Below, piece after piece: positions 7,412-17,540 of a stretch of DNA of 64,000 nt (positions within the stretch are counted from its first letter, which is position 1; each line of letters opens with the position of its first letter). The notes below the pieces were generated by a model. That model had not been told where the DNA came from. It did not search any database and saw only the letters and a list, made by a program, of their open reading frames with translations. Source of the stretch: an uncultured Flavonifractor sp. (GTDB taxonomy: Bacteria > Bacillota > Clostridia > Oscillospirales > Oscillospiraceae). A program made the translations under genes and the position numbers. The stretch covers positions 19,416 through 83,415 of the forward strand of contig NZ_CALWXV010000005.1 of NCBI RefSeq assembly GCF_944385615.1. Direction: 5' to 3'.

Positions 7412-8891
7412 ACTGCGGGAACACGCGGGCTTCCAGTGGGTCTTGAACCGGCTGAGCCCCATGTCTCCCTTTGGCAAGGGGGCCGCCCGGTCCCTCCGCT
7501 GGTACGGCCCCGGAGACGAGGCCGCCCTGGAGGAGGAGCTGGACAATGTCTCCCTGGCCATGGAGCTGTGGAACGCCGGAGCCACCGCTCCCCAGAAGGA
7601 CGACTGCGGCTGCGGCCCGGCGCGGCTCACCGAGGCCCAGCGGAAGGACGCCGCCGCCGCGCTGCGGGGCGTGACCCGGTGCCTGCCCCTGTTTCACGAC
7701 ATCCGGGGCTCCTTCGACCGGGACCCCGGCGCCCCCTTCGACCTGGTGGAGCTCTTTGAGATCAAGCACTTTCTGGTCACCCTGGAGCAGCTGATCCAGG
7801 CCTATGACGCCCTCCCCCCCATGGCCGGGCTGTCCTTCCCCTCCCTGGCAGAGGCCTTGGAGCTGATGGACCCAGAGGGCCGCCGCCTGCCCACCTTTGC
7901 CGTGGTCAATTCCTACCACAACGACCTGGCCCCCCTGCGGGCGGAAAAGGTCAAGCTGGAAAAGGCCATCCGCATGACCCAGGAGGAAAAGCGGGGGCCC
8001 CTGCTGGAAAAGCGCCGGGTGCTGGCGGTGGAGGAGGACAAGCTGGAGCTGGAAGTCCGCCGGATGCTCACCGGCAAGCTGATGGCCTTCAAGCAGGCCT
8101 TCCTGGACAACATGGACGCCCTAGGCCGGTTGGACCTCATCGTGGCCAAAGCCAAGCTGGCCCTGCGCTATCACTGCGTCCGCCCCACCCTCAGCACGGA
8201 CAAGTCCATCACCCTCCACGACGTGCGCCACCCCCAGGTGGAGGAGGATCTGGCCCAGCGGGGAGAGCAGTTCACCCCCCTGGACCTGGAACTGAAACCG
8301 GGCTGCACCGTCATCACCGGGGCCAACATGGGCGGCAAGACGGTGTCCCTTCGCTCCACGGTGCTCTCCCTGCTGCTCTGTCAGTGCGGCTTTTTCGTCT
8401 TTGCCCAGTCCGCCGCCCTGCCCCTGTTCCACCGGGTAGCCCTCATCCTGGCCGACAGCGGACCGGGGGCGGGCGGCCTGTCCTCCTTCGGCAAGGAGGT
8501 CCACCTGCTGGACAACCTGCTGCGGGAGACCCAGGACCAGTTCTTCTTTGTGGCCCTGGACGAGTTTGCCCGGGGCACCAATCCTCAGGAGGGGGCCGCT
8601 CTGGCCCGGGCCCTGGTCCGCCACCTGGGCGGTCTGGACTGCGTGGCCCTCATGACCACCCACTACGACGGGGTCTCCGACGTGGCGGGGGCCCACTACC
8701 AGGTGGCCGGTCTGGTACGGGACATCCAGGGAGACGAGGGGGACGATCCCCGCAAGCGCATCGCCCGGCGGATGGACTACCGGCTCCTGCCCGCGCCCCC
8801 CGGCGCCCCCTGTCCCCGGGACGCGCTGCGGGTGTGCCGCCTGCTCAAGCTGGACGACACCCTCATGGAGCTGTTCCAGGCCGATCTGTGA
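7395..8891 (+). CDS. kamC: KamC, MutS-related ATPase of the lysine aminomutase cluster
   Basis: A 498-residue MutS-family ATPase without the N-terminal mismatch-binding domain. It keeps a helical lever/clamp-like middle (about 150-260, with long charged helices) and the MutS ATPase domain: Walker A GANMGGKT at 309-316, the ADSGPGAGGLSSFGKE signature, Walker B FVALDEFARGTNP with D389/E390, and the TTHYDG histidine loop. CGCG-type cysteines occur near residue 74. It starts inside the end of kamB behind AAGGAGG. Because it lies with kamB beside the B12-dependent aminomutase genes, a chaperone or reactivase role is more likely than DNA repair; this is inference. A strong terminator separates it from kce. 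Confidence 0.85.
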   Translation: MELTHELREHAGFQWVLNRLSPMSPFGKGAARSLRWYGPGDEAALEEELDNVSLAMELWNAGATAPQKDDCGCGPARLTEAQRKDAAAALRGVTRCLPLFHDIRGSFDRDPGAPFDLVELFEIKHFLVTLEQLIQAYDALPPMAGLSFPSLAEALELMDPEGRRLPTFAVVNSYHNDLAPLRAEKVKLEKAIRMTQEEKRGPLLEKRRVLAVEEDKLELEVRRMLTGKLMAFKQAFLDNMDALGRLDLIVAKAKLALRYHCVRPTLSTDKSITLHDVRHPQVEEDLAQRGEQFTPLDLELKPGCTVITGANMGGKTVSLRSTVLSLLLCQCGFFVFAQSAALPLFHRVALILADSGPGAGGLSSFGKEVHLLDNLLRETQDQFFFVALDEFARGTNPQEGAALARALVRHLGGLDCVALMTTHYDGVSDVAGAHYQVAGLVRDIQGDEGDDPRKRIARRMDYRLLPAPPGAPCPRDALRVCRLLKLDDTLMELFQADL

Positions 8892-8900
8892 TCTCCCAGA

Positions 8901-8933
8901 GGCCCGGCAGGGCAAAACCTGCCGGGCCCTTTT
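8901..8933 (+). terminator. kamBC terminator
   Basis: Perfect 11-base stem (8901-8911 with 8918-8928), six-base loop, then CTTTT. It separates kamB-kamC from the riboswitch-controlled kce operon. From 8934 to 9038 I see only an AT-rich upstream region with a small TACCGG/CCGGTA dyad at 8944-8962. Confidence 0.9.
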
Positions 8934-9038
8934 GCACCCGCCATACCGGTTACCGTCCGGTAATTACTGTCCCGCTGTAGTGTACAAAAGTCCCTATCCC
9001 AGAGAAAAATTTTGTCGGCCTAAATTTTTAAAAAATAG

Positions 9039-9067
9039 TTGACAAACGAAAGTGCCTGCGGTATAGT
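9039..9067 (+). promoter_or_regulatory. sigma-A promoter of the kce operon
   Basis: TTGACA (9039-9044), 17 bases, TATAGT (9062-9067), preceded by an A/T-rich stretch like an UP element. The start of transcription should be near 9074, giving a leader of about 310 bases before the kce ATG. Confidence 0.88.
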
Positions 9068-9091
9068 GAATTTGTCAAAAGTGAATAATAC

Positions 9092-9267
9092 GCATGGATA
9101 GAGGCGCGGAGCGCAAGGTAGCAAAGCAATGACAAGGGCAGGCGAGTCCGATGTGCTTTGTGAATGTCCGCTCCGCCGAAGGGGGACGTGAATCGTACAG
9201 CCCTCCCCCTGAGCCGCGGGCCCAGCGCTCACGGATTGTCATGAGTCACATGAAGCGCTATTTGTGT
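9092..9267 (+). promoter_or_regulatory. lysine riboswitch aptamer (L box)
   Basis: RNA aptamer for L-lysine. The five-helix junction signatures are readable: GATAGAGG at 9098-9104, P2 strands CGGAGCG (9107-9113) with CGCTCCG (9169-9175), the hallmark CGCCGAAG at 9174-9181, P3 GGGGG (9181-9185) with CCCCC (9205-9209), and P4 TGAGC (9210-9214) with GCTCA (9227-9231). P1 is 9092-9101 paired with 9258-9267, ten pairs of which four are G-U wobbles. It lies between the operon promoter and kce, so it controls lysine catabolism rather than synthesis or uptake. The switching logic is described in the next entries. Confidence 0.88.
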
Positions 9268-9327
9268 CTGAACGAGAGTAACCCTCCCGCGGACATGAGT
9301 AGTGTTTTTTTGTTCATGAAGCGCTAT
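9249..9327 (+). repeat. 13-base direct repeat in the riboswitch expression platform
   Basis: CATGAAGCGCTAT occurs at 9249-9261 and again at 9315-9327. Copy 1 provides the 3' strand of aptamer P1; copy 2 overlaps the 5' arm of the final terminator. Because the copies are identical, the intervening segment (9297-9308) can pair with either one. This makes the repeat the likely strand-exchange element of the switch. Confidence 0.8.
9256..9311 (+). terminator. candidate lysine-free hairpin/terminator 1 of the kce leader
   Basis: Bases 9256-9270 can pair with 9290-9304 in 15 consecutive pairs (five wobbles), immediately followed by seven Ts (9305-9311). Its 5' arm is the same strand used by P1, so this helix and the lysine-bound aptamer exclude each other. 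It can act as a terminator by itself, or as an anti-antiterminator that keeps 9297-9308 away from repeat copy 2. Confidence 0.7.
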
Positions 9328-9372
9328 CCCGCCGGAAGGTATATTTCCTACCGGCGGGATAGCTTATTTTTT
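9323..9372 (+). terminator. terminator 2 of the lysine riboswitch, directly before kce
   Basis: Perfect 13-base stem GCTATCCCGCCGG (9323-9335) with 9351-9363, followed by TTATTTTTT, ending just before the kce ribosome site (AGGAGG at 9375-9380). An alternative hairpin pairs 9299-9308 with 9318-9327 (ten pairs, several wobble) and would disrupt the 5' arm, acting as an antiterminator. That pairing is free to form only when P1 holds repeat copy 1, the lysine-bound state. Confidence 0.88.
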
Positions 9373-9386
9373 CGAGGAGGCGTGTC

Positions 9387-10205
9387 ATGGAAAAGCTTAT
9401 CATTACCGCGGCCATCTGCGGCGCAGAGGTCACCAAGGCCCATAATCCCGCTGTCCCCTACACCGTGGAGGAAATGGTCCGCGAGGCCAAGAGCGCCTTC
9501 GACGCCGGCGCTGCCGTCATCCACGTCCACGTCCGGGAGGACGACGGCACCCCCACCCAGGACCGGGAGCGGTTCCGGGTGATTCTGGACGCCATCAAGG
9601 AGGCTTGCCCCGGCGTGATCCTCATCCCCTCCACCGGCGGCGCCACCGGCATGACCCCGGAGGAGCGGCTCCAGCCCACCGAGCTGTGCCCTGAGATGGC
9701 CACCTTGGACTGCGGCACCTGCAACTTCGGCGACGATATCTTCGTCAACGACATGCCCACCATGCGTGCCTTCGGCCAGCGGATGCTGGAAAACCACATC
9801 AAGCCCGAGTATGAGTGCTTTGAGATCGGCCACCTGGACACCATCGTGAACATGGCCAACAAGGGCCTGGTCCCCGGCGCTCCCATGCAGTTCAACTTCG
9901 TGCTGGGCGTGTCGGGCTGCACCCCCGCCACTGTGGGCAATCTGGACTATCTGGTCAAGCAGATCCCCGCCGGGTCCACCTGGACCGTCACCGGCATCGG
10001 CCGGGGCGCCTGGCCCATGGTGGCCGCCGGTATCGTGATGGGCGGCAATGTCCGGGTGGGCTTTGAGGACAACATCTACCTGGAAAAGGGCCATAAGGCC
10101 GCCTCCAACGGCGAGCTGGTGGCCAAGGTGGTCCGCCTGGCCAAGGAGCTGGGCCGCGAGATCGCCACCCCCGACGAGGCCCGGAAGATCCTCTCCCTGG
10201 CCTAA
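9387..10205 (+). CDS. kce: 3-keto-5-aminohexanoate cleavage enzyme
   Basis: Zinc-dependent BKACE-family enzyme (formerly DUF849) that condenses 3-keto-5-aminohexanoate with acetyl-CoA and releases acetoacetate and 3-aminobutyryl-CoA. The metal ligands of the family are in place: H46 and H48 in VIHVHVRED and a Glu at about 227 in GFEDN. E14 and the STGGATGM and GIGRGAWPM substrate-loop motifs are also present. Length is 272 residues, normal for Kce. Family members act on other beta-keto acids, but the kdd, kamA, kamD and kamE neighbours fix the substrate with high probability. It is the first gene after the lysine riboswitch and uses strongly biased, C-ending codons. Confidence 0.95.
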   Translation: MEKLIITAAICGAEVTKAHNPAVPYTVEEMVREAKSAFDAGAAVIHVHVREDDGTPTQDRERFRVILDAIKEACPGVILIPSTGGATGMTPEERLQPTELCPEMATLDCGTCNFGDDIFVNDMPTMRAFGQRMLENHIKPEYECFEIGHLDTIVNMANKGLVPGAPMQFNFVLGVSGCTPATVGNLDYLVKQIPAGSTWTVTGIGRGAWPMVAAGIVMGGNVRVGFEDNIYLEKGHKAASNGELVAKVVRLAKELGREIATPDEARKILSLA

Positions 10206-10255: not shown

Positions 10256-10282
10256 AACAACATGAAACAGGAGGAACGTTCT

Positions 10283-11323
10283 ATGCAGAAAAAAGGCAAT
10301 AAATACGGCACTCACCGCGTCATCGAGCCCCAGGGGCTGCTGACCCAGGCCGCCAAGAAGATCGACAATACCATGGAGTGCTACTCCAATGAGATTCTGT
10401 GCGACGTGTCCGCGCTGAATATCGACTCCGCCTCCTTCACTCAGATCTATGAGGCCTGTGAGAAGGACCTGGCCCGTACCGAGCAGATGATTCTGGACAT
10501 CGTCAACGAGCGGGGCAAGATGCAGAACCCCGTCACCGGCTCCGGCGGTATGTTCATCGGCACCGTCCGCGAGATCGGCGAGGACCTGCAGGGCAAGATC
10601 GACCTGAAGGTGGGCGACAAGATCGCCTCCCTGGTATCCCTGTCCCTGACTCCCCTGAAGATCAACAAGATCAAGGCCATCCATCCTGAGATCGACCGTG
10701 TGGACGTGGAGGCTCAGGCCATCCTGTTTGAGTCCGGCCTGTACGCCAAGCTGCCCGACGACATGAGCGAGGAGCTGGCTCTGGCCGCTCTGGACGTGGC
10801 TGGCGCTCCCGCTCAGACTGCCAAGCTGGTCCGTCCCGGCGACTCCGTCCTCATTCTGGGCGGCGCGGGCAAGGGCGGCATGATGTGCTGCTACGAGGCC
10901 ATGAAGCGCGTCGGCCCCACCGGCAACGTGGTCGCCCTGGTCATCTGCCAGGAGGACGCCGATCTGCTCAAGAGCATGAACCTGTGCCACCACGCCATCG
11001 TGGGCTCCGCCACCAACCCCGTGGAGGTGCTGGAGAAGTCCCTGGCCGTCAACGGCGGCAAGGAGTACGACGTGTCCATCCTCATCGTCAACGTGCCCGC
11101 CTGCGAGATGGCCGCCATTCTGCCCGTCCATGACAACGGCGTGGTGTACTTCTTCTCCATGGCCACCGATTTCGCCAAGGCCGCCCTGGGCGCCGAGGGC
11201 TGCGGCAAGGACGTCACCATGATCGTGGGCAACGGCTACACCAAGGACCACGCCGAGATCACCCTGTCCGAGCTGAGAGAGAATCCCCAGCTCAAGGCTT
11301 ACTTCGAGAAGAAGTACCTGTAA
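10283..11323 (+). CDS. kdd: L-erythro-3,5-diaminohexanoate dehydrogenase
   Basis: NAD-dependent oxidative deaminase that converts 3,5-diaminohexanoate to 3-keto-5-aminohexanoate, the substrate of Kce. The N-terminal part binds substrate. A medium-chain-dehydrogenase-like Rossmann fold starts at about 187, with the nucleotide loop GGAGKGG at 193-199. The start at 10283 is preferred over an ATG seven codons upstream because AGGAGG lies just before it, and 346 residues is the usual Kdd length. It follows kce by 77 bases that contain a small tandem repeat. Confidence 0.95.
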   Translation: MQKKGNKYGTHRVIEPQGLLTQAAKKIDNTMECYSNEILCDVSALNIDSASFTQIYEACEKDLARTEQMILDIVNERGKMQNPVTGSGGMFIGTVREIGEDLQGKIDLKVGDKIASLVSLSLTPLKINKIKAIHPEIDRVDVEAQAILFESGLYAKLPDDMSEELALAALDVAGAPAQTAKLVRPGDSVLILGGAGKGGMMCCYEAMKRVGPTGNVVALVICQEDADLLKSMNLCHHAIVGSATNPVEVLEKSLAVNGGKEYDVSILIVNVPACEMAAILPVHDNGVVYFFSMATDFAKAALGAEGCGKDVTMIVGNGYTKDHAEITLSELRENPQLKAYFEKKYL

Positions 11324-11552: not shown

Positions 11553-12806
11553 ATGGTAGAGTCCCGCCGTAAGATCCTGTTTCCCAACGTGACCGACGAA
11601 GAGTGGAACGACTGGCACTGGCAAGTCAAAAACCGCGTTGAGACCCTGGAGGACCTGAAAAAATATGTGGACCTGACCCCCGAGGAAGAGGAAGGCGTCA
11701 AGGCCTGTCTGGGCACCCTCCGCATGGCCATCACCCCCTACTACCTGTCCCTGATCCAGCCCGGCGATCCCCATGACCCCGTCCGGCTCCAGGCCGTTCC
11801 CACCGCCAAGGAGCTGCACCAGTCTTCCGCCGATCTGCTGGACCCCCTGCACGAGGATGAGGACTCCCCGGCTCCCGGTCTGACCCACCGCTATCCCGAC
11901 CGCTGCCTGCTGCTCATCACCGACCAGTGCTCCATGTACTGCCGTCACTGCACCCGCCGCCGCTTCGCCGGCCAGAACGACGCCGGCCTGCCCGTGGATC
12001 AGGTGGATCAGGCCATCGAGTACATCCGCAACACCCCCCAGATCCGCGACGTGCTCCTCTCCGGCGGCGACGCCCTGCTGGTCAGCGACGAGCGGCTGGA
12101 GTACATCATCGCCAAGCTGCGTGAGATCCCCCACGTGGAGATCGTCCGCATCGGCTCCCGCACCCCGGTGGTGCTGCCCCAGCGCATCACTCCCGAGCTG
12201 TGCAACATGCTGAAGAAGTATCATCCCATTTGGCTGAACACCCACTTCAACCACCCCAACGAGATCACCCCCGAGGCTGCCGCCGCCTGCGCCCGTCTGG
12301 CCGACGCCGGTATCCCCCTGGGCAACCAGTCCGTGCTGCTGGCCGGCATCAATGACTGCGTCTACACCATGAAGAAGCTGGTCAACGAGCTGGTCAAGAT
12401 CCGGGTGCGTCCCTACTACATCTATCAGTGCGACCTGTCCATGGGCCTGGAGCACTTCCGTACCCCCGTCAGCAAGGGCATCGAGATCATTGAGGGCCTG
12501 CGTGGCCACACCTCCGGCTACTGCGTGCCCACCTTCGTGGTGGACGCCCCCGGCGGCGGCGGCAAGACCCCCGTTATGCCCCAGTACGTCATCTCCCAGA
12601 CCCCCAAGAAGGTCATCCTCCGCAACTACGAGGGCGTTATCACCACCTACACCGAGCCCGAGCACTACACCGACTGCCAGTGCGACTACTGCACCGGCAA
12701 GAAGAAGAAGGAGCTCATGGGCGTGGCCGGTCTGGAGCGGGGTCAGGCTCTGTCCATGGAGCCCGCCGGGCTGGAGCGGCATAAGCGCTCCCACCACGAG
12801 GAGTAA
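11553..12806 (+). CDS. kamA: L-lysine 2,3-aminomutase
   Basis: Radical-SAM, PLP-dependent enzyme that converts L-lysine to L-beta-lysine, the first step of the fermentation. The iron-sulfur cluster motif is C126-x3-C130-x2-C133 (CSMYCRHC). The PLP lysine is K338 in PGGGGKTPV, one residue from K337 of the Clostridium subterminale enzyme. The C-terminal zinc/dimer region with CQCDYC is present. Length 417 residues matches the family. The preceding 229-base spacer is C-rich and G-poor with no clear gene or hairpin, so this gene may depend on read-through from the riboswitch promoter. Confidence 0.97.
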   Translation: MVESRRKILFPNVTDEEWNDWHWQVKNRVETLEDLKKYVDLTPEEEEGVKACLGTLRMAITPYYLSLIQPGDPHDPVRLQAVPTAKELHQSSADLLDPLHEDEDSPAPGLTHRYPDRCLLLITDQCSMYCRHCTRRRFAGQNDAGLPVDQVDQAIEYIRNTPQIRDVLLSGGDALLVSDERLEYIIAKLREIPHVEIVRIGSRTPVVLPQRITPELCNMLKKYHPIWLNTHFNHPNEITPEAAAACARLADAGIPLGNQSVLLAGINDCVYTMKKLVNELVKIRVRPYYIYQCDLSMGLEHFRTPVSKGIEIIEGLRGHTSGYCVPTFVVDAPGGGGKTPVMPQYVISQTPKKVILRNYEGVITTYTEPEHYTDCQCDYCTGKKKKELMGVAGLERGQALSMEPAGLERHKRSHHEE

Positions 12807-12886: not shown

Positions 12887-14455
12887 ATGTTGGAATCCAA
12901 GCTGAACCTTGATTTTAAGCTGGTCGAACAGGCCCGCGCCCACGCCTCCCGGGTGGCGGACGACACCCAGCGTTTCATCGACGGCTGCACCACCGTGGCC
13001 GTGGAGCGCACCATCTGCCGCCTGCTGGGCATCGACGGGGTGGACAGCGCCGATGTCCCCCTGCCCAACGTGGTGGTAGAGCACCTGATGGACAAGGGCG
13101 CGCTGCCCCAGGGCGCCGCCTTCTGGATCGGCAACGCCATGGTGGAGACCGGTAAGACTCCCCAGGCCATCGCCGAGGATATCGCCAGCGACAAGCTGGA
13201 CCTGACCGCTCTGCCCACCCACAGCGAGGCCGAGATCCACGCGGCTCTGGACCCCATCGTGGAGGAGAGCCTGGCCAAGATCCGCGCCCGCCGCAAACGC
13301 CGGGAGGACTTCATCGCCAGCCACGGCGGTGAGAAGCAGGGCCCCTGGATCTACCTGATCGTGGCCACCGGCAACATCTATGAGGACGTGGTGCAGGCCA
13401 CCGCCGCCGCCCGCCAGGGCGCCGACGTCATCGCCGTTATCCGCACCACCGGCCAGTCCCTGCTGGACTACGTGCCCTACGGCGCCACCACCGAGGGCTT
13501 CGGCGGCACCTACGCCACCCAGGAGAACTTCCGCCTGATGCGTGAGGCCATGGACAAGGTGGGCGAGGAGCTGGGCCGCTACATCCGGGTGTGTAACTAC
13601 TGCTCCGGCCTGTGTATGCCCGAAATTGCCGCTATGGGCGCTTTTGAGGGTCTGGACGTGATGCTCAACGACGCTCTGTACGGCATCCTCTTCCGGGACA
13701 TCAATATGCAGCGCACTCTGGTGGACCAGTCCTTCTCCCGGGCTATCAACGCCTATGCCGGCGTGGTCATCAACACCGGCGAGGACAACTATCTGACCAC
13801 CGCCGACGCGGTGGAGGAAGCCCACACCGTGCTGGCCTCCCAGTTCCTTAACGAGGCCTTTGCCTTGCGGGCCGGCCTACCCGAGGAGCAGATGGGCCTT
13901 GGCCATGCCTTCGAGATCGACCCCGACGTGGAGAACGGTTTCCTTTATGAGCTGGCCCAGGCCGAAATGGCCCGTGAGATCTTCCCCAACGCCCCCCTGA
14001 AGTATATGCCCCCCACCAAGTTCATGACGGGCAACATCTTCCGGGGCCAGGTACAGGACGCCCTGTTCAACATGGTGACCATCCTTACCAACCAGAAGAT
14101 CCACCTGCTGGGCATGATGACCGAGGCCATCCACACCCCCTTCCTGTCCGACCGTTTCCTGGCCATCCAGAACGCCCAGTATATCTTCCGCACCATGCAC
14201 GACCTGGGCAGCGAGATTGTCTTCAAGGATGGCGGCATCATGCAGAACCGGGCGGCCGACGTGCTCCACAAGGCCACCGATCTGCTGGGCCAGATCGAGC
14301 AGCTGGGCATTTTCGAGACCCTGGAGCGGGGCATCTTTGCCGACATCAAGCGTCCCCGGGACGGCGGCAAGGGCCTGGACGGCGTGGTAAGCAAGGCCGC
14401 CGGGTACTTCAACCCCTTCCTTGAGCCCATGATGAAAGGGGGTGTCGGCAAATGA
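12887..14455 (+). CDS. kamD: beta-lysine 5,6-aminomutase alpha subunit
   Basis: Large catalytic subunit of the adenosylcobalamin/PLP-dependent enzyme that moves the terminal amino group of beta-lysine to carbon 5, giving 3,5-diaminohexanoate. The 522-residue protein has the family's TIM-barrel segments, including IRTTGQSLLDYVPYG, and the PLP/B12 contact loops around RLMREAMDKVGEELGRYIRV. It forms a complex with KamE; the two genes overlap by four bases (ATGA), which favours equal synthesis. The ribosome site (GGAAGTG) is weaker than those of its neighbours. Confidence 0.96.
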   Translation: MLESKLNLDFKLVEQARAHASRVADDTQRFIDGCTTVAVERTICRLLGIDGVDSADVPLPNVVVEHLMDKGALPQGAAFWIGNAMVETGKTPQAIAEDIASDKLDLTALPTHSEAEIHAALDPIVEESLAKIRARRKRREDFIASHGGEKQGPWIYLIVATGNIYEDVVQATAAARQGADVIAVIRTTGQSLLDYVPYGATTEGFGGTYATQENFRLMREAMDKVGEELGRYIRVCNYCSGLCMPEIAAMGAFEGLDVMLNDALYGILFRDINMQRTLVDQSFSRAINAYAGVVINTGEDNYLTTADAVEEAHTVLASQFLNEAFALRAGLPEEQMGLGHAFEIDPDVENGFLYELAQAEMAREIFPNAPLKYMPPTKFMTGNIFRGQVQDALFNMVTILTNQKIHLLGMMTEAIHTPFLSDRFLAIQNAQYIFRTMHDLGSEIVFKDGGIMQNRAADVLHKATDLLGQIEQLGIFETLERGIFADIKRPRDGGKGLDGVVSKAAGYFNPFLEPMMKGGVGK

Positions 14456-15240
14456 GTTCCGGACTGTATCAGATTCGTGACAAAGATTTGGACACCACGC
14501 TGGACCTGACCCGGCTGAAACCCTACGGCGACACCATGAACGACGGCAAGGTGCAGCTCTCCTTCACCCTGCCTGTCAAGGACGACGACAAGGGCGCGGC
14601 GGCGGCCGTGCTGATGGCTCAGAAGATGGGTCTGGCCGACCCCAATGTGGCCCTCCGCCAGAAGCTGGACGAGAGCTTTACCTTCTATGTGGTGTATGGC
14701 TCCCTGACCCACTCCATCAACTACAACGAGATCGTGGTGCAGACCGTGGCCGATGAGGCCATGGGCATGGACGAGACCGACGAGTTCCTGAAGGAGCGGC
14801 TGGGCCGCAAGCTGGTGGTGGTAGGCGCTTCCACCGGCACCGACGCCCATACCGTGGGCATCGACGCCATCATGAACCGGAAGGGCTTTGCCGGTCACTA
14901 CGGCCTGGAGCGCTATGAGATGATTGAGGCCTATAACCTTGGCTCTCAGGTGCCCAATGAGGAGTTCCTCCGCAAGGCTGCCGAGGTCAACGCCGATGTG
15001 TTGCTGGTCTCTCAGACCGTTACCCAGAAGGACGTCCACATCCAGAACCTGACCGAGCTCATCGAGCTGGCCGAGGCCGAGGGCGTCCGTGAGAAATACA
15101 TCTTCTGCTGCGGCGGCGCCCGCATTACCCACGCCCTGGCCAAGGAGCTGGGCTATGACGCCGGCTTTGGCGCCGGTACCTACGCCGATGACGTGGCTAC
15201 CTTCTGCGCCAAGGAAATGGTCCGCCGTCTGGGCAAATAA
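14452..15240 (+). CDS. kamE: beta-lysine 5,6-aminomutase beta subunit, B12-binding
   Basis: Small subunit carrying the cobalamin Rossmann domain. The base-off/His-on motif D-x-H-x2-G is present as DAHTVG with H133, and the Schiff-base lysine is K144 (IMNRKGF). These are the same positions known as His133 and Lys144 in the Clostridium sticklandii enzyme. The later GGARITHALAKELGYDAGFG segment closes the B12 pocket. Length is 262 residues. Last gene of the lysine operon; a hairpin follows after 50 bases. Confidence 0.96.
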   Translation: MSSGLYQIRDKDLDTTLDLTRLKPYGDTMNDGKVQLSFTLPVKDDDKGAAAAVLMAQKMGLADPNVALRQKLDESFTFYVVYGSLTHSINYNEIVVQTVADEAMGMDETDEFLKERLGRKLVVVGASTGTDAHTVGIDAIMNRKGFAGHYGLERYEMIEAYNLGSQVPNEEFLRKAAEVNADVLLVSQTVTQKDVHIQNLTELIELAEAEGVREKYIFCCGGARITHALAKELGYDAGFGAGTYADDVATFCAKEMVRRLGK

Positions 15241-16071: not shown

Positions 16072-17442
16072 TCATTCGTATTGCTTTCGCCCCGTGGTGC
16101 TGGGGATGTGCAGCTCGTCCCGGTACTTGGCCACGGTACGCCGGGAGAGAGGACAGCCCTGGGCGGTCATCATCTGACACAGCTTCTGGTCGGACAGGGG
16201 CTTTTTCTTGTCCTCTCCGGCGATGAGCTTTTTCAACAGCGCCTTGGCCGCGTCCGGGGATGCGGCCTCCTCTCCCCCGCTTCCCGTCCCCAGGCTGCGG
16301 GAAAAGAAATAGCTCAGGGGATAGACCCCCATGGAGCACTGAATATACTTGTCCTTTACCGCCCGGCTCACTGTGGACTCGTGGACGCCGATGCGTCCCG
16401 CCACGTCGGCCAAGGACATGGGCACCAGATGGCCCGGCCCCTGCCGGAAAAAGGCCTCCTGCAACTCCAGAATACAGCCCGCGCAGGACATGAGGGTAGA
16501 GCGGCGCTGTTCGATGGCGTGGACCATCCACTTGGCCTGTTTCACCTTGCCGGTCAGATAGTCCTTGACCTGCTGGTCGTCGCTCTCCTTTAGTAAGCGG
16601 GTATAATATCCGCTGATGCCCAGATGGGGAAAATAGTAATCGTTGGTCAGCAGCTCAAAGTGGTCGGGAAAGCTGACCACAATGATATCCGGGTTGATGT
16701 AGGTCAGATTTTCCCGTGCGGCAAAGCCGGTGCCCGGCCGGGGATTCAGGCTACGGATGCGCTCACAGGCGGCCCGCACCTCCTCCGGCGCGGCCTTCAG
16801 CTCCCGGGCAATGAGGCCGTAGCGGCTTTTGGACAGAGCGTCCAGCTGACTGTCCACAATACGGACCGCCAGCCAGTCCACCGGAGCGCGGCGGAGCAGC
16901 TGTAAGCGCAGGCACTCGGACAAGTCCCGGGCTCCCACTCCGGCGGGCTCCAAGGACTGCACCGCCGCCAGCGCCCGCTCCAGCACCTCCATGGAACAGC
17001 CGTAGTCGGCGGCCAGGATTTCCATAGGCTCGTCCAGCCAGCCATTGGCATTGAGGCTCTCCACCAGAAAGGCTCCCGCCTCCGCCACCTCCGGGGGCAG
17101 CTCCAGCGTCTTCAGCTGGGAGAGCACATAATAATAAAGGTTGTCCTCTTGGTCCTCCAGGGTGCCGTAGTTGCCCAGCCGGTCGTCCTGCTCCTCGGTA
17201 TCCTGCTGGTGGTAATAGCGGTTCTGGGGATCGGTGGACTCCAGCCACTCCAGCTTCCGATGGAGCTGATCGCTCTCGTCCGCCCGGTCGTAGCGCTCCT
17301 CCGGCTCCAGCACCGGGTTTTCCTGTACGGCCTCCTCTATATACTCCAGCAGCTCCTGAGACCCCATTTGCAGGATCTCCATAGACTGCATCATCTGGGG
17401 AGAGAGGGTCTGGGTCTGCTTTTGCGTCAGATTCAGTTCCAA
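16072..17442 (-). CDS. rpoN: RNA polymerase sigma-54 factor
   Basis: Alternative sigma factor that needs an AAA+ activator. Region I is Gln/Leu-rich at the N-terminus (MELNLTQKQTQTLSPQMMQS). The core-binding domain spans about 80-290, followed by a helix-turn-helix (VHESTVSRAVKDKYIQ). The diagnostic RpoN box is near the end as SRRTVAKYRDEL (about 433-444). The TTG at 17442 is used as start: AGGGAGG lies eight bases upstream and the protein then begins exactly at region I, giving 456 residues. No sigma-54 activator gene is in the window. Confidence 0.93.
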   Translation of the reverse strand: MELNLTQKQTQTLSPQMMQSMEILQMGSQELLEYIEEAVQENPVLEPEERYDRADESDQLHRKLEWLESTDPQNRYYHQQDTEEQDDRLGNYGTLEDQEDNLYYYVLSQLKTLELPPEVAEAGAFLVESLNANGWLDEPMEILAADYGCSMEVLERALAAVQSLEPAGVGARDLSECLRLQLLRRAPVDWLAVRIVDSQLDALSKSRYGLIARELKAAPEEVRAACERIRSLNPRPGTGFAARENLTYINPDIIVVSFPDHFELLTNDYYFPHLGISGYYTRLLKESDDQQVKDYLTGKVKQAKWMVHAIEQRRSTLMSCAGCILELQEAFFRQGPGHLVPMSLADVAGRIGVHESTVSRAVKDKYIQCSMGVYPLSYFFSRSLGTGSGGEEAASPDAAKALLKKLIAGEDKKKPLSDQKLCQMMTAQGCPLSRRTVAKYRDELHIPSTTGRKQYE

Positions 17443-17540
17443 GGCAGCTTCCTCCCTTCGCCCATATTCGCGGTTTCCCGGAAGAAAGTATACCATGGAC
17501 GCCCCCTCTATTTCAACCGTTCACCCTATAGAAAAACGTC

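Follow-up and report, generated by a model that had tools for sequence, protein, structure and literature searches.

A candidate lysine-ON riboswitch with a repeated aptamer 3' end and two terminators upstream of kce-kdd-kamADE in an uncultured Flavonifractor species

The lysine degradation operon and its leader

The window, by which is meant the whole stretch of 64,000 nucleotides analysed here, encodes on its forward strand the enzymes of the kce-kdd-kamADE operon, each of which exceeds the curated cut-off of its NCBIfam family (Table 1); the closest named kce genes are from Flavonifractor, with 98% identity. The genes kamB and kamC are located upstream of the riboswitch leader that precedes kce, and a GC-rich hairpin followed by a short T-run at 8901-8933, recognized by eye 3' of kamC, would set kamBC apart from the lysine-controlled operon. 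On the 3' side of the operon, on the opposite (-) strand, lies the rpoN gene for sigma-54 (16072-17496).

The leader combines a sigma-70 type promoter, the only match returned by the promoter search (versus a mean of 0.4 in shuffled sequences), with a lysine riboswitch aptamer that scores above the gathering threshold of its Rfam model. An initial annotation, made from the letters of the sequence without database searches, had placed a lysine aptamer between a consensus promoter and kce-kdd-kamADE; the Rfam match, the promoter and the NCBIfam names of the downstream genes bear this out and link the aptamer to lysine metabolism. The principal helices described there are also found: P1 (9092-9101/9258-9267) forms ten of ten pairs, and the helix that follows it (9256-9270/9290-9304) forms fifteen of fifteen before a run of seven T. 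This second helix is the stem of terminator 1, for which -25.8 kcal/mol is computed over 9252-9308; terminator 2 has an outer stem of 13 bp and reaches -31.8 kcal/mol. A simple scan of 8850-9450, with a rule of an unbroken stem and a loop of 3-8 nt, returned no terminator, because terminator 1 has a large loop and terminator 2 a mismatch in its stem, so that neither fits the rule.

What the initial annotation overlooked is that the segment able to pair with 9299-9308 is part of something longer. The sequence CATGAAGCGCTAT occurs twice in the leader as a direct repeat, at 9249-9261 and at 9315-9327, and the second site therefore has the P5 3' strand, J5/1 and the start of the P1 3' strand. The pairing of strand A with the second copy (9096-9101/9324-9329) consists of six standard pairs without a wobble. 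Because the 3' end of the aptamer is thus repeated inside terminator 2, one aptamer could close on either copy and so gate two serial terminators. Two full aptamers in tandem were also considered and were ruled out, as the window contains a single RF00168 match and the whole-genome search gives a single one at this place.

Table 1. Positions of the promoter, the leader elements and the operon genes in the window
Feature	Position	Strand	Details
Sigma-70 type promoter, TTGACA-17-TATAGT	9039-9067	+	11/12 match to consensus
Lysine riboswitch aptamer (RF00168), first closure	9091-9268	+	64.4 bits, E 1.6e-14, gathering threshold 30
Strand A (P1 5' strand)	9092-9101	+	9096-9101 (GGATAG) can also pair with 9324-9329
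P5 5' strand	9239-9245	+	5 pairs with 9249-9253 or 7 pairs with 9313-9319
Copy B	9249-9267	+	P5 3' strand 9249-9253, J5/1 AGCG 9254-9257, P1 3' strand 9258-9267
Terminator 1	9256-9311	+	9256-9270/9290-9304 (15 pairs), T7 9305-9311; 5' arm includes the P1 3' strand of copy B
Strand C (terminator 1 3' arm)	9290-9308	+	9299-9308 can also pair with 9318-9327
Copy B' (alternative aptamer 3' end)	9313-9329	+	P5' 3' strand 9313-9319, copy of J5/1 AGCG 9320-9323, P1' 3' strand CTATCC 9324-9329
Terminator 2	9323-9372	+	9323-9335/9351-9363, then TTATTTTTT; 5' arm includes the P1' 3' strand of copy B'
kce, 3-keto-5-aminohexanoate cleavage enzyme (operon gene 1)	9387-10205	+	NCBIfam NF052387, 416.7 bits, cut-off 382
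kdd, 3,5-diaminohexanoate dehydrogenase	10262-11323	+	NCBIfam
kamA, lysine 2,3-aminomutase	11553-12806	+	NCBIfam
kamD, lysine 5,6-aminomutase alpha	12887-14455	+	NCBIfam
kamE, lysine 5,6-aminomutase beta	14452-15240	+	NCBIfam

Lysine leaders at other kce loci

Seventeen of 60 genomes sampled from the genus, that of the window included, possess kce over the cut-off. All 16 kce-bearing relatives have an RF00168 match over the gathering threshold (15 of these aptamers were listed by cmscan, and that of L017, unlisted there, was found in the whole-genome search), which argues that the leader is not a product of chance; such a leader is absent from L029, a second kce of one relative. Alignment of the 17 leaders shows conservation of the promoter (TTGACA with TATAGT or a TATAGT-like -10 element in 17/17), the P1 5' strand, both copies, strand C and the T-run, and the terminator 1 counterparts of the genus pass the terminator test. 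The 13-mer of copy B' is identical in all 17 leaders, and copy 1 of it is intact throughout the genus except for one base in L003. The pairing of 9299-9308 with 9318-9327 that the initial annotation had proposed is complete in the window and kept in the relatives, with ten of ten pairs in 15 of the 17 leaders and nine of ten in the other 2. Positions 9313-9317 are used neither by terminator 2, which begins at 9323, nor by this pairing of strand C, yet their CATG is constant in 17/17.

Among 391 genomes drawn from across the class, kce exceeds the cut-off in 31, the window's own among them; 4 of the other 30 have an RF00168 match close upstream of kce, and a regular expression adds L209. The folds of L034, L036 (56.1 bits in the whole-genome search, yet unlisted by cmscan) and L209, read by eye, build the 5' arm of a single terminator from the P1 3' strand, and in the distant kal-kce leaders L033 and L035 strand C can, again by eye, pair with the 5' arm of a separate terminator; all of these layouts predict ON control. 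A wider set of 197 kce loci yielded 157 aptamers by regular expression rather than by Rfam (the expression missed L034, which Rfam finds), of which L096 and L116 were dropped as false; of the 155 that remained, 121 were distinct and 120 were tested, L061 being left out. A loose terminator test passed 145 of the 155 kce leaders but also many weak hairpins among the controls, and a strict test was therefore adopted. Of the 120 distinct kce-linked leaders, 104 passed this test, their P1 3' strand falling within the 5' arm of an intrinsic terminator. A control set of 33 lysine riboswitches from elsewhere, made up of 32 class-wide RF00168 matches not near kce together with L001, gave 4 such cases and one leader that could not be placed; among single-copy kce leaders, the P1 3' strand is found in the only terminator seen in 56 of 66 distinct cases. 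The architecture thus supports the original proposal that the kce leader of the window is a lysine ON switch, and the same sign would be expected in the cell.

The control L001 is a second lysine riboswitch of the window's own genome (G000:C14:43849-44023, 80.2 bits), located before a gene that by translation is asd-like; there the terminator has a 5' arm complementary to the P1 3' strand, an OFF design, and one of the longer folds contains this pairing. The four controls that passed are L147, L148, L131 (-13.8 kcal/mol) and L143 (-8.0 kcal/mol), the last two being weaker. L148 (G325:C6:170510-170688) is an ON-type lysine leader, with its P1 3' strand in a T6 terminator, 5' of a putative ORF that is possibly lysine-induced. 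L147 (G325:C4) and L034 (G267:C7) are ON-type leaders before similar aminotransferase-like genes (translations read by eye), which perhaps encode an unassigned step of lysine fermentation. The regular expression found no aptamer at 40 of the 197 kce loci, a few of which have little upstream DNA (for example, L065 and L196); 29 of the 40 are titled Bacteroidales or related (for example, L077-L079, L087 and L099-L107). In this sample the lysine switch before kce looks confined to Clostridia.

A second copy of the P5 3' strand, J5/1 and the P1 3' strand is present downstream in 70 leaders, 42 of them distinct; L061, L227 and L234 joined this set by eye, and L047 and L230 are not counted in it. 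A simpler motif was matched by 18 of 45 kce leaders versus 4.6 expected from shuffles, although some of the 18 (L057, L062) look like chance, and it gave three weak matches in the 33 controls. Under a slightly looser T-run rule, terminator 1 passes in 40 of the 42 distinct duplicated leaders and terminator 2 in 32, with no clear terminator 2 in 10. Nine duplicated leaders were checked by searching their genomes with RF00168; by coordinates, all nine have a match at the kce leader that exceeds the cut-off. L047 and L230 have a decayed second copy (GGAGGGTTGTCC) with terminator 1 and its T-run still in place, possibly a loss in progress; L046 is the reverse case, in which the second copy and terminator 2 are present and the first hairpin has no T-run (CCCCCTTATG comes next). 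On a FastTree phylogeny of kce from 125 loci (61 duplicated, 62 single and 2 decayed, with one long branch, loci without a full kce being left out), the single or duplicated label changes 11-12 times, at least 6 of them on starred branches, implying that the layout was gained or lost repeatedly or travelled with operons.

Counted over loci, which share ancestry and include some genomes that entered through two tools, B' pairs with the P5 5' strand of its own leader at 194 of 217 positions, versus 163.9 +- 4.8 when copies are dealt among loci (P about 5e-5; 31 combinations), and the first copies do so at 178 of 217. At the loop-side positions 6-7 of P5, B' pairs in 42 of 62 cases, versus 29.2 +- 3.6 when dealt (P 3.5e-4); across 39 combinations it pairs at 57 of 78 of these positions and B at 34 of 78, and of the 22 cases at positions 2-5 in which the two copies differ, B' remains paired in 20. 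In the 31 composites 87.8% of cells are paired, versus 33-55% when the strands are offset by 1-3 columns; both sides are changed in 48 cells, versus 20.6 in shuffled sets (0/500 as high), and pair 5 of P5' appears as GC 14 times, CG 12, GU 3, UG 1 and other 1. The measures least inflated by relatedness are the pairs changed on both sides (6 versus 4.8 shuffled, 72/500 as high) and the further pair types (23 versus 20.5 shuffled, 33/500 as high), neither of which is clearly raised. In a tree-aware test, in which independent changes are few, pair 5 of P5' behaves as expected in 3/3 independent pairs (p 0.25), and for positions 6 and 7 clear support for P5' pairing was not found among the results listed. 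Beyond the genus, folding gives a mixed picture: in RNA that ends just after B', P1' and P5' together reach 0.5 in only 17 of the 42 distinct leaders and P5' alone in 27, and P1 on B reaches 0.5 in none of the 42.

Folding order, proposed mechanism and alternatives

The 17 genus leaders were folded with ViennaRNA, the energies of which include no lysine and no tertiary contacts. In every leader the order is the same: with strand C still to be transcribed, the aptamer closed on B lies 0.1-1.0 kcal/mol from the ensemble; once the T-run is complete, terminator 1 is favoured over it by 7.1-14.2 kcal/mol; and before the 3' arm of terminator 2 is made, the aptamer closed on B' together with the terminator 1 hairpin lies 0.1-1.9 kcal/mol from the ensemble. 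At full length the OFF fold beats the aptamer on B' by a mean of 9.7 kcal/mol (-3.1 to 17.9) and the pairing of C with B' by a mean of 19.3 kcal/mol (1.7 to 31.5), the minimum of both ranges coming from L014, for which the script apparently misplaced terminator 2. Prediction of the OFF fold also joins the P1 5' strand (9093-9104) to 9305-9319, which covers the terminator 1 T-run and the CATG of B', and this pairing may sequester strand A without lysine. Direct paths computed for the window give a barrier of 3.4 kcal/mol (net -16.8) from the aptamer on B to the aptamer on B' when B' is just out, and one of 16.6 kcal/mol when the path begins 11 nt later; from the aptamer on B' to terminator 2 the barrier is 3.4 kcal/mol (net -9.4). 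Without ligand all modelled routes descend to OFF. Since the OFF fold wins at full length, lysine would have to act kinetically.

We propose that the leader is probably a transcription riboswitch turned ON by lysine, with a single aptamer 5' domain for which B and B' are alternative closing strands, each located in the 5' arm of its own terminator. While terminator 1 is being made, an aptamer that has bound lysine on B would keep the 5' arm and block termination; without lysine, terminator 1 would form and transcripts would stop. Once the polymerase has moved past, the terminator 1 hairpin could form harmlessly and free the aptamer for B', with re-closure using P1', P5' and the copied J5/1 and with the terminator 1 hairpin extending P5. 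At this second check, bound lysine would hold the 5' arm of terminator 2, presumably by raising the barrier between the aptamer on B' and that terminator, so that kce-kdd-kamADE would be read; an unbound aptamer would let terminator 2 form. The hand-off is the least certain step, as lysine lingering on B could let terminator 2 form and give an OFF output. The broader reading, to which we give slightly better than an even chance, is that a single sensor is read twice in each pass of transcription, being handed from terminator 1 to terminator 2 by means of two interchangeable 3' strands, and that Clostridia have gained or lost this layout on several occasions.

The initial annotation reached the ON sign by another route, a switch of four strands in which lysine holds P1 on B, the freed strand C pairs with 9318-9327 and terminator 2 is blocked; B' would then resemble B because both pair with C. 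Conservation of the pairing between C and B' in the genus is in keeping with this route, and L033 and L035 look to be built in this way, with a strand C complementary to the 5' arm of a separate terminator. It also covers the moment when lysine remains on B, and the pairing may help the proposed mechanism at that point. As the main block on terminator 2 in the window we consider it unlikely: in all 17 leaders this state is 11.3-16.9 kcal/mol less stable than the ensemble at the point before terminator 2 is made, and in the window terminator 2 displaces the pairing of C with B' across a barrier of 4.1 kcal/mol (net -7.1) with the aptamer on B throughout, so that lysine on B would neither lock that pairing nor raise its barrier. 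It further leaves unexplained the CAT of the P5 3' strand in B' and the P5 pairing in other lineages.

The initial annotation had also cautioned that pairing of 9096-9101 with 9324-9329 would favour the opposite sign. All six pairs are present, but they belong to a second way of closing the aptamer, of which they make up one side: with 9239-9245/9313-9319 and the J5/1 copy, they re-close the aptamer on B' and hold the 5' arm of terminator 2, and thus the sign need not flip. An OFF switch with an odd target would have lysine trap the aptamer on B, leaving B' free to form terminator 2, and would have the wobble-free pairing of A with B' act as a plain antiterminator without lysine. The aptamer on B combined with terminator 2, at 8.2-16.2 kcal/mol above the OFF fold, averages only about 3 kcal/mol above the aptamer on B', and a slow off-rate of lysine would favour such a switch. 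Nevertheless it is improbable, for it requires a terminator 1 that does not work, in conflict with the terminator 1 that passes in nearly all distinct duplicated leaders; the single-copy kce relatives are built for ON; and lysine degradation would be shut off when lysine is plentiful. Likewise improbable is the idea that only terminator 1 is controlled by lysine, with B' a relic of duplication and terminator 2 a constitutive attenuator or a stabiliser of the RNA. This would agree with the one such terminator of single-copy leaders, the decay of B' in L047 and L230, and the distinct duplicated leaders that have no clear terminator 2; a relic would hardly be invariant across 13 nt in all 17 genus leaders or mostly keep its pairing with P5 where it is unlike B.

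If the proposed mechanism of one aptamer serving two terminators is correct, basal expression would be cut roughly by the product of two terminations and the response would be sharper, without a second aptamer, and duplicating some 17 nt would tighten the switch at little cost. The layout makes the change of closing strand by an aptamer during transcription directly testable.

Relation to known riboswitches

In lysC-type lysine leaders an antiterminator is broken by lysine, which gives OFF control. The B. subtilis lysC-type L box belongs to the same aptamer family (RF00168) as the leader of the window. Unlike the lysC type, the window's P1 3' strand sits inside the terminator itself, predicting ON, and its start is repeated in, rather than complementary to, the 5' arm of terminator 2. 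In the adenine riboswitch of pbuE (ydhL) the P1 3' strand held by the ligand is the 5' arm of the terminator, and the ligand switches expression ON. The leaders of the window and the genus resemble it in this use of the P1 3' strand; pbuE/ydhL has one closure and one terminator, whereas the window leader has two 3' strands and two terminators.

Passages of PMC5584792 describe the lysine riboswitches found upstream of kal/kce in C. sticklandii, F. nucleatum and Thermoanaerobacter as positively regulating, and these riboswitches share with the window leader the ligand, the target pathway and the asserted positive sign. Because positive control of lysine catabolism is already asserted there, the catabolic link and the sign alone are not new; the expression platform and the second copy of the 3' end described here do not figure in those passages, and the window leader supplies a concrete platform through which the asserted positive control of lysine fermentation could work. 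According to a passage of PMC9337991, another riboswitch pair, for Na+ and c-di-AMP, precedes a lysine 2,3-aminomutase gene. A literature search for one aptamer with two terminators found no description in the sources within its reach, which excluded most subscription papers.

Riboswitches are usually described as consisting of one aptamer and one platform, or of whole units in tandem, according to passages of a review of tandem riboswitches that counts 14 double lysine riboswitches (PMC9481103), and passages of PMC12452182 define tandem riboswitches by two aptamers; the window leader has one complete aptamer. Partially tandem T-boxes, mentioned in a passage of PMC7583486, likewise involve partial duplication of a leader switch, and they read tRNA instead. 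The pseudo-cooperative tandem riboswitches treated in passages of PMC9481103 have two serial checkpoints for one ligand, as is proposed here, but each checkpoint there has its own aptamer and platform, whereas in the window leader both would share one aptamer 5' domain.
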